A stretch of DNA of 33,415 nt from a virus. Shown one piece after another: positions 13,359 to 28,266 of the stretch. How positions within the stretch are numbered: position 1 is the stretch's first letter; every line of letters starts with the position of its first letter. The position numbers and the translations under genes are program-made. The notes under the pieces are model-generated. The model had not been told where the DNA came from and ran no database searches. It saw only the letters and a program-made list of their open reading frames with translations. Location: positions 1 through 33,415 of IMG/VR virus record IMGVR_UViG_3300027759_000265; one strand, given 5' to 3'.

Positions 13359-13889
13359 TTAATCAAATAGATCTGCTTTTGATAAAAAAGGGGCTTCTAA
13401 GTCTTTTTGAGAAAGTATTGCCAAATCTAAATTAGGCCAGGCTATGCCTAGTTGTTCATCATTCCAACGGATAGATCTGTCATATTCTTTATACCAATAT
13501 TCTGTGGTTTTATAAAGCACCTGAGTGTTATCTTCTAGTGCCATGAATGCATGTGCAAAACCTGGTGGTACCCATAATTGTTTTCCATTATCTGCTGTCA
13601 ACTCTACTGAAACCCATTGTTCAAAAGTAGGAGAAGACTTTCTGATGTCCACCGCAACGTCTAGGATAGATCCGGCCACAACTCGAACAAGTTTGCCTTG
13701 TGGTTTAACTAATTGATAATGTAACCCCCTCACTACATTTTTAGAGGAACAAGAATGGTTATCTTGAACAAATGTATATTCCTTAAAATATTTTTGATTA
13801 AAGCTTTCAAAAAAGAATCCTCTTTCATCTTGAAAACGTTTTGGAGTATATATTTTTACTTCCGGCAAAAGGGTTTCTTCTATGTACAT
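13359..13889 (-). CDS. rmlC: dTDP-4-dehydrorhamnose 3,5-epimerase
   Basis: This 176-aa cupin-fold protein of normal length contains the family signatures RFQDERGFFFESF (18-30), VVRGLHYQ with the catalytic His57, and WVPPGFAHAF (106-115); a tyrosine near residue 131 (TTEYW) is the expected second catalytic residue. It would convert the RmlB product to dTDP-4-keto-rhamnose, forming a partial deoxysugar pathway with rmlB. It overlaps tilS by 10 nt, an odd partnership that suggests a shared transcript rather than a shared pathway. Confidence 0.94.
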   Translation of the reverse strand: MYIEETLLPEVKIYTPKRFQDERGFFFESFNQKYFKEYTFVQDNHSCSSKNVVRGLHYQLVKPQGKLVRVVAGSILDVAVDIRKSSPTFEQWVSVELTADNGKQLWVPPGFAHAFMALEDNTQVLYKTTEYWYKEYDRSIRWNDEQLGIAWPNLDLAILSQKDLEAPFLSKADLFD

Positions 13890-14539
13890 GAGATATTTAA
13901 CCTTTCCATAATCTTCTTTTTAACAATAGTGGAGAGACCTACTCTTTCTTCTTCTAACAGAGGAATAATCTTATTTCTTAGTAAATTCCTTCTACTTCCT
14001 CTTACCTGAATGTTTGTCTCATCTTCTACAATGTATGAGAGGAGGTTGTGTTTGTGGGTGTATTCTAATAGATCCTGCTTCCGACTAAGAAGAAAGGGTC
14101 TGTTGATGAAATTGGTGCCTACTTCTGTTTGAAAGGGGATAGGAAGAAATCCTTCTTTACCTCTAATACAGTTGAGAAGATAACTCTCTACACAATCATC
14201 AAGATGATGAGCTGTAATGAAGATGGTGTCTTTGTATGATTTGATATATTCCAACCTAGCTTGGCGACAGGAATCTTCAGTACCATCTCCACATTCTAGA
14301 TTTTCAATATAAAACGGTACAGAAGTTGTTCTAGCAAATCTTTCAAAAGAATATTCCATTTCAATATTCTGTTTTCGAAGATTGTGATTGAAATGTAAGA
14401 GAGCAATACTTCTTGTATCTTGAAACTTATTAATAAAATAATGGGAAGCTGCAATGCTATCTACACCACTAGAACACAACAGAACAACGGATAAATGTTG
14501 GTTTGAAAGATTAAAAATTTGAGAAGAGAATGTAATCAT
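13880..14539 (-). CDS. tilS: tRNA(Ile)-lysidine synthase, short form
   Basis: A PP-loop ATPase: SSGVDS (23-28) matches the SGGxDS nucleotide motif with one Gly to Ser change, followed by ITAHHLDDCVES (109-119), RPFLLSR (147-153) and the C-terminal VEDETN...RRNLLRNKIIP pattern typical of TilS. TilS adds lysine to C34 of tRNA-Ile(CAU) so that it reads AUA. At 219 aa it is only the catalytic domain; most bacterial TilS proteins carry extra C-terminal domains. A tRNA-like gene ends 10 nt upstream on the same strand. MesJ-like or other PP-loop modification enzymes remain possible. Confidence 0.85.
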   Translation of the reverse strand: MITFSSQIFNLSNQHLSVVLLCSSGVDSIAASHYFINKFQDTRSIALLHFNHNLRKQNIEMEYSFERFARTTSVPFYIENLECGDGTEDSCRQARLEYIKSYKDTIFITAHHLDDCVESYLLNCIRGKEGFLPIPFQTEVGTNFINRPFLLSRKQDLLEYTHKHNLLSYIVEDETNIQVRGSRRNLLRNKIIPLLEEERVGLSTIVKKKIMERLNISCT

Positions 14540-14549
14540 TTAAAAGAGA

Positions 14550-14649
14550 TCCTCTAGGTTGGATTCGAACCAACGGCAAGCGCTTTATCCCGGCATTTTG
14601 GCCCTTAACCATGAGGGAGCACTAGATCTACCAACTGAGTTACTAGAGG
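14550..14649 (-). tRNA. tRNA-like gene with an enlarged anticodon loop
   Basis: On the minus strand the 7-bp acceptor stem is perfect (CCTCTAG with CTAGAGG, discriminator A, no encoded CCA). The T arm is perfect (GTTGG, TTCGAAT, CCAAC), and the D loop AGTTGGTAGA is canonical, though its stem has two mismatches. AGTGCT (14618-14623) pairs with AGCGCT (14579-14584) where the anticodon stem should be, followed by 4-5 nt before the T arm as normal. The loop it closes is 33 nt instead of 7. It contains CTCAT (complement of 14611-14615), the loop sequence of tRNA-Ile(CAU), but no regular anticodon loop. It may be a degenerate or intron-bearing tRNA. Confidence 0.6.
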
Positions 14650-16272: not shown

Positions 16273-16911
16273 ATGCGCACCAAGGATCAGATTCAACTAG
16301 AAAATCTTTATCTTTCCATGAAGAGACAACAAATGGTTAAGGAAGGTACTTGGTCTGATGTAGGACATGCTGCGTTGGATGTGGCTTCTCTGGCCACCTT
16401 TTGGGTGCCGGGTTTAAATATTCCGTTTGATCTCACCAATACTCTTTGGTATGCGGAAGAAGGAGACTGGCTCAATGCAGCTTTCAGTTTGATATCTTGT
16501 ATTCCGGAAGTGGGAGAATTGGCTAAGTTACCTAAAATTGCTGGATGGATATCTAAAGGATCTAAAGCTTTAAAGGAATTGGGTACAGTCGGAAAATTTG
16601 CAGAAAGAGGAATAGGAAAAGTTGGTACTGCAATTGCAACCGCTGCTCCGAAGATTGCAGAAGCAAAAACTCTCATACAACAAAATCAAGACAAAGTCAA
16701 TGAGGTGTTAGATGCCGCAGCTAAGAATGAAAAATTAGCACAATATGTTCCAAAGATTAGAGAATCTTTAATGGCCTTCACAGGTCAAAAAGCTTCTGGT
16801 ATGCCTTCAGATTATAGAGAAAAGAAATCAAACTTAGGAGGAATGGTTCCTCCTACTAGTGCACCCCCGGTTCCGGGTTCCGCTCAAGCCGCTACTCAAG
16901 GTGTTGCTTGA
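16273..16911 (+). CDS. Probable virion-associated protein with N-terminal tag and hydrophobic domain
   Basis: This 212-aa protein begins MRTKDQIQLENLY, matching the start of the protein at 28324-28713, which suggests a shared sorting tag. Residues about 30-75 (HAALDVASLATFWVPGLNIP, then WLNAAFSLISCIPEVGELAK) resemble the pre-toxin type segment seen in front of effector domains and in some injected phage proteins; this is from memory of the pattern and not certain. The middle is Ala/Lys helical, and the C-terminus is Pro/Ala-rich. It is driven by a late-type box. It overlaps the RNA ligase gene tail to tail by 20 nt. Confidence 0.65.
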   Translation: MRTKDQIQLENLYLSMKRQQMVKEGTWSDVGHAALDVASLATFWVPGLNIPFDLTNTLWYAEEGDWLNAAFSLISCIPEVGELAKLPKIAGWISKGSKALKELGTVGKFAERGIGKVGTAIATAAPKIAEAKTLIQQNQDKVNEVLDAAAKNEKLAQYVPKIRESLMAFTGQKASGMPSDYREKKSNLGGMVPPTSAPPVPGSAQAATQGVA

Positions 16912-18016
16912 ACGTCTCCCAAAGTTTGTGAGGAGGAATCTTTTTGCTATCTAGTAAAGCAAAAGCAATCCCAGAATCATTAGGGAACTGCTGAAGAATC
17001 TTTTGAGCTTTTCCTTTACGGTCTAAAGCTATAAAATCTGGATTAATTAAAAATACAGATATCTGCATTAATTTATACGTAATCAATCTAATCTTATTAT
17101 ATAGCTCATCCATTAGAGGAGCTAAAGCAACAACTAACTCCCAATCAAAATTAGTAGCTAATAGAGCTTCAAAGTTTTCTCTTTGAGGTTGTCCATACTC
17201 TACAAATAAATCAAATAAATGATCTACAGTCTTTACTCCAGTGAACACTCGATGCATATACAGATATCGAGGAGTCTTGACCTTCTTGAGAGTCTGACCA
17301 TTGTTGCTATAAATGACCACACCTTCAATAGATTCTTTGTCTTTAAGATACTCAGATACATTTAAAAGATTTAGTTCATATCTTTCTGGCCGGGGTACTT
17401 CTAGAAAGATAGCTTGCTGATCTAATTCGAATTGCGTAAAGTATCTATAAGAAAATTGAGTAACCCCCATAAACATCATAAAAGTATCATCTGATGGGTT
17501 TTTATGAGCTACAATACCAATTAACCATAAAGTCGGTTCTTCACTTTCTTTAAGAACTATACGATTAGTAGGAGTAGTCCATTCAAACAACAAACTATAA
17601 TTTTCAGACTGAAGCCATAGATTATCAAACACTCTTGGATACTTTTCTTTGAGTATAGTAATTTCATGGCCGTTAGGTAATTGAGTTGCATTAGTAGTAC
17701 CTCTAGTACGAACAATAAGCTCTCCTTTATATTGAGAGACAATAAGTAGACTGCCATCCACTTTTCGCATAAACTCTAAATCAGTGTCGTTGTCGTTGGG
17801 TTCAAATAAAGGCTTTTCACCCATATTGTTGAACTTTTTAAAGCCTAAACTGATAGGGTGCATGTCAGATTTGCGCCAGATAGAAGAACGAAATATTTTA
17901 TTTTTATCGTTCCATTCTACGTCCATACCTTTAGGGGTAATGAGTACACATTCATCTCCCGCGATGATACAGTCTTTGAGATTGAATTGATCTGAATCAG
18001 GAAGTTCAATTTTCAT
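16892..18016 (-). CDS. T4 Rnl1-like RNA ligase
   Basis: A 374-aa nucleotidyltransferase. Motif I is KVDG with the predicted adenylated Lys85, preceded by LEFMR; motif III is around FEW (144-146); motif IV is EGVVIY (231-236); motif V is LKKVK (243-247). Length and motif spacing fit the T4 RNA ligase 1 family, which joins 3'-OH and 5'-phosphate RNA ends and repairs cleaved tRNA anticodon loops. The C-terminal domain (residues 260-374) is helical, as in Rnl1 proteins. It overlaps the upstream amidotransferase-like gene by 4 nt. Confidence 0.85.
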   Translation of the reverse strand: MKIELPDSDQFNLKDCIIAGDECVLITPKGMDVEWNDKNKIFRSSIWRKSDMHPISLGFKKFNNMGEKPLFEPNDNDTDLEFMRKVDGSLLIVSQYKGELIVRTRGTTNATQLPNGHEITILKEKYPRVFDNLWLQSENYSLLFEWTTPTNRIVLKESEEPTLWLIGIVAHKNPSDDTFMMFMGVTQFSYRYFTQFELDQQAIFLEVPRPERYELNLLNVSEYLKDKESIEGVVIYSNNGQTLKKVKTPRYLYMHRVFTGVKTVDHLFDLFVEYGQPQRENFEALLATNFDWELVVALAPLMDELYNKIRLITYKLMQISVFLINPDFIALDRKGKAQKILQQFPNDSGIAFALLDSKKIPPHKLWETFKQHLE

Positions 18017-27225: not shown

Positions 27226-28230
27226 TTAATCTTTGTAATTTTGATTAATAATCTTAACACTTAACATCTTTTGCAAATGCTCGCTGTATCTAGATTTACC
27301 TTCGCTATCAAATCCTCTTATAACAATACCCTCAGCAGGAAGACCACTTGGATACTTTTGTTTATTGGCCAATTCTTGCAATTCTTCTGTAGTCAACTGG
27401 AGGATCTCTCCAGCAGTGAAAGACTTAACAAGTGGAACACTTTTTATAGTCGATTCGTTGGGCCTGAATACTGGGTTGAAGTATTCTCCAGATGAAAGGT
27501 TCTTGGCATTAAACAAATATAAACTTAATTCTTTTAATCCTATTAGATTTTTTTGAATTCCAGGTCCGCACAGTTCAAACTGGAAGGCAGTGCCGGGTTC
27601 AATCTGTTCTTCTAGATTATACATTCTAGCTGCTTTCCAGAAAGAATTCTCTTCTGTTTCTTTCAAATCTAAATTGCGCGAACAAACATGAAATTCTCCT
27701 TCTGCAGTTTTAAGAGCGGTCATGCTACTACCATCCATTTTTAAAGTTACCTGGACATAGTCACTTTTTTTCAACTCTTCTAAGACCTTAATATTGGACA
27801 GGAGATTATCTTCATCTGTCCGACTGATCAAGTGAGAAGGGAAACTACCTCTCACTTCACCTTGCAAGCTAGCTGGAATCGGGCGTTCATATTTGGTAAC
27901 TCCTAAAGTCTCGGAAACATCATTGCCCATCACTTGCCAGATAGTACCAGTGATTTTAACGGAGAACACAAGACCCTGAGATACTTGTCCTCGAAGTTTG
28001 ACGGTCTTTACTCTGATGGGTTTGCTAGGGTCTTCTTTGTCCCAGAGGAATTCATTCCAATGTCTGGGCTCCATAACGGTATCAATAGGAATGAAGACCA
28101 CCATTTGTCCTACTTCGAATTCACCCTTCTTAACAACTGCCTTCCATCCCTGGACCACTGCCAATTCAATACGATCTGCTCCTTCAATAGGAAGAAGTTC
28201 ATTAATTTTTTCAATGACTGCTAATTTCAT
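27226..28230 (-). CDS. RNA ligase, DRB0094 (Rnl5) type
   Basis: The protein has an N-terminal OB-type domain of about 150 residues (KLAVIEKINELLPIEGADRI, VVQGWKAVVKKGEF, VGQMVVFIPIDTV). A nucleotidyltransferase core follows with motif I KMDGSSMT (Lys164 from the start used here), motif III-like FQFELCGPG and motif IV AEGIVIRG. The family, typified by the Deinococcus enzyme, seals nicks where the 3'-OH strand is RNA. I chose the ATG at 28230 because a TATTATA box overlaps the earlier ATG at 28245. It heads the operon with the kinase, TOPRIM, AAA+ and peptidase genes. Confidence 0.88.
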   Translation of the reverse strand: MKLAVIEKINELLPIEGADRIELAVVQGWKAVVKKGEFEVGQMVVFIPIDTVMEPRHWNEFLWDKEDPSKPIRVKTVKLRGQVSQGLVFSVKITGTIWQVMGNDVSETLGVTKYERPIPASLQGEVRGSFPSHLISRTDEDNLLSNIKVLEELKKSDYVQVTLKMDGSSMTALKTAEGEFHVCSRNLDLKETEENSFWKAARMYNLEEQIEPGTAFQFELCGPGIQKNLIGLKELSLYLFNAKNLSSGEYFNPVFRPNESTIKSVPLVKSFTAGEILQLTTEELQELANKQKYPSGLPAEGIVIRGFDSEGKSRYSEHLQKMLSVKIINQNYKD

Positions 28231-28266
28231 AACTCTATAATACATTTAAATTGGCGGAAGTGCAAC

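Follow-up and report, generated by a model that had tools for sequence, protein, structure and literature searches.

Analysis of the window, i.e. the whole 33,415-base stretch of an IMG/VR virus record, revealed at positions 14649–14550 of the minus strand a tRNA-like RNA gene in which a structured module takes the place of the anticodon loop. The element is a member of a family of tRNA-like RNAs conserved in phages, which is very probably real and non-decoding: its architecture was found in no fewer than 34 sequence variants from a wide variety of phages. The job of the family RNA is probably not codon reading. We put at roughly 0.4 the probability of the complete explanation, that of a conserved family of non-decoding tRNA mimics which act in trans, perhaps as decoys for anticodon nucleases. 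A tRNA-like RNA family with such a loop module is apparently undescribed: no matching RNA was found in Rfam or in the literature, where subscription journals were incompletely covered. It has long been asked why phages encode tRNAs, and codon supply provides only part of the answer; with a tRNA body devoid of an anticodon, a function other than decoding stands by itself and can be tested directly.

The window element scored 30.4 bits with the Rfam tRNA model RF00005 (gathering score 29) and was not called by ARAGORN. Because standard tRNA finders miss such genes or score them marginally, many phage genomes probably contain members of the family that have gone unnoticed. RF00005 was the only model above cut-off in the Rfam scan of the window, the next being a sub-threshold SNORD20 on the opposite strand, and neither ARAGORN nor Rfam found a tmRNA there. 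Upstream of the element, a search for a promoter of its own gave one consensus match, no better than in shuffled sequences. The sequence-only reading had described perfect acceptor and T arms and a 6-bp helix closing a 33-nt loop; reading of the minus strand and the RF00005 match confirm this anatomy, the helix being AGUGCU/AGCGCU and the loop CCCUCAUGGUUAAGGGCCAAAAUGCCGGGAUAA. A UA linker joins the 5′ acceptor strand to the D arm, whose loop retains A14, G15, G18, G19 and A21. The parts of the RNA, together with the protein genes discussed below, are as follows.

14550–14649, minus strand: tRNA-like RNA gene, 100 nt, family member (RF00005, 30.4 bits; family model R1, 104.9 bits)
14643–14649, minus strand: acceptor stem, 5′ strand CCUCUAG, pairing with 14551–14557 (7/7 pairs in the window)
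14625–14640, minus strand: D arm ACUC-AGUUGGUA-GAUC, stem with two mismatches in the window's clade
14623, minus strand: A making the sixth anticodon-stem pair (helix AGUGCU/AGCGCU)
14618–14622, minus strand: anticodon stem, 5′ strand GUGCU (double changes at all five pairs in the family)
14615–14617, minus strand: helix 2, 5′ strand CCC, stacked on the anticodon stem (98% of cells paired)
14611–14614, minus strand: UCAN segment, UCAU in the window (UCAU 23, UCAA 6, UCAC 5 of 34 in the family)
14600–14610, minus strand: hairpin GGU[UAAGG]GCC, in the family GGU[NAAGG]RCC (letters partly set by the search patterns)
14592–14599, minus strand: joining segment AAAAU-GCC, in the family NAA..GCN (34-member comparison)
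14589–14591, minus strand: helix 2, 3′ strand GGG (family pair counts)
14585–14588, minus strand: 3′ bulge AUAA, from helix 2 to the anticodon stem (4–5 nt in most members)
14580–14584, minus strand: anticodon stem, 3′ strand AGCGC (family pair counts)
14575–14579, minus strand: variable loop UUGCC (GCC end in 34/34 members)
14558–14574, minus strand: T arm GUUGG-UUCGAAU-CCAAC (99.4% of cells paired in the family)
14551–14557, minus strand: acceptor stem, 3′ strand CUAGAGG (family pair counts)
14550, minus strand: discriminator A, a base not conserved across the family
13880–14539, minus strand: neighbouring gene for a tilS-like PP-loop protein, 219 aa (PF01171, 92.2 bits)
16892–18016, minus strand: gene for a T4 Rnl1-like RNA ligase, phage RNA-repair kit (PF09511, 53.7 bits; phrog_562)
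27226–28245, minus strand: gene for an Rnl5-type (Naegleria-type) RNA ligase, possible partner (PF21189 and PF09414; PDB 5cot, E = 7e-47)

An exact 31-nt piece of the window's loop was found again in two other contigs. Between the window and its relatives an 89-nt core is 97.8% identical and the neighbouring genes are 67–77% identical; in the comparison with one of them (L083) the loop is unchanged while the flanking genes fall to this level, and three compensated acceptor pairs account for six of the nine differences that separate the window from its relatives. Searches of IMG/VR with a 15-mer, with T-arm patterns and with a strict and a relaxed version of the core brought the number of distinct sequences to 34. 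The 15-mer gave further tRNA-like contexts mixed with chance matches; the strict core was present in 16 contigs, always in a tRNA-like context (the copy in L226/L227 is cut at the 3′ end), and six matches to the relaxed core were due to chance. The search patterns preset the letters UCA, GGU, AAGG and RCC in many members. That the loop consensus is more than an artefact of the search is shown by the members in L239, L260 and L286, which were also recovered by a pattern without fixed loop letters, GGUAGAGC...GGUUCGA. A covariance model, R1, built from 12 members gave scores of 67.5–107.5 bits for the 34 sequences; in the 23 phage records used as controls no score was above 61.1 bits, which is what ordinary tRNAs reach. 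Exactly one R1 match in the range of the members was present in 26 of the 27 carrier records, the copy in the 27th being truncated. Relatives with an ordinary 7-nt loop, set beforehand as the refuting result, were not found: every homologue keeps the expanded loop (34/34), and a 7-nt anticodon loop with U33 is absent throughout. The sequence-only reading was right in seeing a tRNA-like gene whose anticodon loop is enlarged and folded, and the decoy that it offered as one option is still a candidate.

The module which replaces the anticodon loop consists of helix 2, the UCAN segment, the GGU[NAAGG]RCC hairpin, the NAA..GCN segment and the 3′ bulge. Helix 2, of 3–5 bp in the family, extends the anticodon stem and exists as CCC/GGG, CGGC/GCCG, CCGAC/GTCGG, CCTCC/GGAGG, GAGC/GCTC and other versions. 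The small hairpins proposed on the basis of the window only (CCCU/AGGG and GGC/GCC) are not conserved; instead, CCC pairs with the distal GGG in the relatives, and RCC with GGU. Over the 34 sequences 93.2% of the cells are paired (71.9% after shuffling), 182 cells are double-changed (shuffled mean 51) and the covariation score reaches 0.537, compared to 0.143 for shuffled and at most 0.098 for slid controls; these counts come from an alignment fitted to the structure, which favours the structure, but they are borne out by 12 members aligned by hand. In the acceptor stem 97.9% of the cells are paired, with changes on both sides at six of the seven pairs. Support for the GGU/RCC hairpin is weaker, because its variation is limited to U-A versus U-G. 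Acceptor, D and T arms as well as the D-loop/T-loop elbow residues are retained, the D stem being imperfect in part of the family. Folding of single sequences recovered the structure only in part, best for the window and L121, and with weak z-scores. A reading frame starting from the AUG of the loop, long in L104, was judged to be a chance occurrence, since spacer lengths shift by single bases. The AAGG could possibly pair with the 16S anti-Shine-Dalgarno sequence, over 4–5 nt only.

The tilS-like gene does begin, as had been noticed, 10 nt past the 3′ end of the RNA, with an ATG at 14539. From this proximity and from the CUCAU of the loop a link with tRNA-Ile(CAU) and TilS had been proposed. 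It does not hold: CAU is absent from 11 of the 34 members (UCAA in 6, UCAC in 5), and carriers do not have tilS more often (3/27) than controls do (2/23); the tilS neighbourhood looks incidental to the RNA in the window. The two genes are likely co-transcribed there. In the segment 14539–14557 of the window the likely Shine-Dalgarno sequence of tilS, AGAGGA, sits within the 3′ acceptor strand, so that in this phage tilS translation could depend on how the RNA folds or is processed at its 3′ end.

Grouping of the carriers by common flanking genes gave 20 groups, some of which may merge since the flanks are short. Many members lie within tRNA arrays. On three carrier contigs (38, 5 and 5.7 kb) the family RNA is the sole tRNA-like gene, with a terminase-like gene at about 1.3–1.8 kb (midpoint) from it. 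At the sensitivity reached, neither cultured phages nor bacterial genomes yielded a member: four BLAST queries against INPHARED gave no record covered over at least 80%, and with the strict pattern none of 85 GTDB contigs showed the family core together with a cloverleaf. Among proteins encoded next to the RNA in the small carriers there was no recurring anti-defence gene. One neighbour, a 116-aa protein (L286:2058–2408), shows a weak match to peptidyl-tRNA hydrolase 2 (PF01981, E = 0.005; phrog_5822).

What, then, could such an RNA do? That it is a degenerate tRNA, as the sequence-only reading had suggested among other options, or an assembly artefact might be argued from the poor pairing of the D stem in the window and its clade and from the silence of ARAGORN, but we consider this practically negligible: the loop is invariant and the changes are compensatory in independent contigs, and it is because of this conservation and covariation that decay was rejected. 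The element could also be an intron-bearing pre-tRNA, from which phage or host enzymes would remove the insert to give tRNA-Ile(CAU) or another normal tRNA; RNA ligases are indeed present in the window, and inserts that look removable do exist in other phage tRNAs. This was assessed by making all single contiguous excisions and requiring five stem pairs, a 7-nt loop, U33 and a purine at position 37. The method detects removable inserts, as it restored a normal arm in 11 of 14 phage tRNAs chosen by hand for long inserts of other kinds, and in 19 of 45 long phage tRNAs collected with one pattern (0.5 in shuffles, maximum 2). The family lacks them: a normal arm could be restored in 2 of the 34 members, against 0.9 in shuffles. 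Since, in addition, the conserved letters fall inside the putative insert and no group I intron core (RF00028) was matched in the window, an insertion that leaves a normal tRNA, as first envisaged, is very improbable. Alternatively, a specialised tRNA might work on the ribosome in a non-standard manner (bypass, stalling or rescue) by means of its long anticodon arm. Binding to the ribosome or to an elongation factor would require the elbow residues and the T arm, and these are preserved, but there is neither a 7-nt loop nor a conserved anticodon, and in some contigs the RNA is the sole tRNA-like gene. Moreover, no charging identity is visible, because the discriminator (T16, A10, C4, G4) and the 1-72 pair (six standard types) vary freely, as does the acceptor stem. 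We regard such a ribosomal role as quite unlikely, though less so than an intron.

The main rival sees in the RNA a partner or standing substrate of phage RNA repair, the module binding the Rnl5-type ligase or bringing it to tRNAs that have been cleaved; the RNA and its ligase would then function as a pair. In the window the Rnl5-type ligase gene is 13 kb away from the RNA; it adjoins it in L232 and L394, lies at about 5 kb or less in several related phages and is distant in others. Its OB domain, PF21189, is encoded by 17 of 27 carriers versus 6 of 23 controls, and among records above 100 kb by 11 of 12 versus 4 of 15 (Fisher p = 0.0014, a value which ignores kinship, while about half of the ligase-bearing carriers are related). 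Co-occurrence and proximity are thus suggestive of an association, and the window and its relatives also encode an Rnl1-type ligase and a kinase-like protein. The Rnl1-type enzyme was itself considered as a partner and discarded, with no enrichment (about 8/27 carriers versus 6/23 controls). Against the repair role, the contrast between carriers and controls weakens when any PF09414 ligase is counted, ligases are common in large phages, the control records were picked by a long-tRNA pattern, and several carriers (G011, G022, G029–G031, G035 and G037), though perhaps fragments, are without the ligase. On balance we find this role unlikely, if somewhat less so than one on the ribosome.

The reading we favour is that of a tRNA mimic, for which the following mechanism may be envisaged. 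The family RNA would be made and trimmed like a tRNA without decoding; its L-shaped body would give it entry to a tRNA-binding site, so that it could act in trans, and the rigid module in the position of the anticodon loop would hold or block a partner protein. The most plausible partner would be a host enzyme attacking tRNA anticodon loops in phage defence, which would make the RNA a decoy that cannot be cleaved. For phage tRNAs, an activity against defences that target tRNAs is known or has been proposed (PMC10264068, PMC11555353), and for this reason the tRNase decoy stands as the leading candidate, with the ligase partner as its main rival. The decoy mechanism taken by itself, with a tRNA-targeting defence nuclease as candidate partner, is tentative and in our analysis has the odds somewhat against it. 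Broader, and only slightly short of an even chance, is the view of a widespread phage RNA class that uses the tRNA body as a pure scaffold and never decodes, its module blocking or recruiting a tRNA-handling enzyme, whether defence nuclease or RNA-repair ligase.

Other phage tRNAs with inserts were encountered along the way. Nine of about 115–121 nt (in L334, L337, L321, L262, L305, L331, L325, L283 and L290) carry inserts of 41–48 nt, placed after nucleotides 1–3 of the 5′ anticodon-stem strand, which often start with UA, hold a hairpin and have, about 15 nt ahead of the 3′ end, a conserved ACNGCAA. Their deletion gives perfect anticodon arms (Asn GUU, Thr UGU, Lys UUU, Ile GAU, Thr GGU), and from their sequences they look like an undescribed class of small tRNA introns. 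Hairpin inserts of 28–29 nt occupy the anticodon loop (TTTG[..]TAA) of tRNA-Thr(UGU)-like genes at L104:11926–12026 (G002:38925–39025) and L003:146–246, ARAGORN finding no other Thr tRNA in the L104 array, and a 29-nt insert forming a hairpin of roughly 10 bp occupies that of a tRNA-Leu(UAA)-like gene at L116:3631–3733. In a cultured phage, Aeromonas phage Aeh1 (NC_005260), three consecutive tRNA-like genes of 113–119 nt are found (L403:139–255, 273–385 and 405–523); one is annotated (tRNA-Val, CAC), ARAGORN calls none, and excision from the third yields a UCA anticodon. Aeh1 is thus an isolate where insert-bearing phage tRNAs could be tested.

Among known RNAs of obscure role, the nearest is the T4 pair, species 1 (rnaC, 139 nt) and species 2 (rnaD, 119 nt), which are likewise phage RNAs, located at the end of a tRNA array, but give no match to the R1 model. 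RnaC resembles the family in ending with a T arm and an acceptor-like strand; by eye, its later part (L402:609–747) reads as an acceptor/T-arm domain, CGGAACG ... CCGGG-UUCGAAU-CCCGG-CGUUUCG. As a candidate member it was set aside, with an R1 score of 13.8 bits and no UCANGGUNAAGGRCC module. The intron-bearing tRNAs of archaea and eukaryotes, and the insert-bearing ones of phages, also have extra sequence in the anticodon region but, in contrast to them, family members give no normal anticodon arm on excision. With tRNA-Ile2(CAU), the substrate of TilS, the window copy shares CUCAU, 10 nt before tilS, whereas the family has no conserved CAU, no association with tilS and no 7-nt loop. Finally, the phage tRNAs that evade tRNases (PMC10264068), for which a role against tRNA-targeting defence has been proposed, have altered anticodon loops too and often lie in tRNA arrays; they retain a 7-nt loop and decode, while the family presents in its stead a structured module of about 30 nt and no anticodon.
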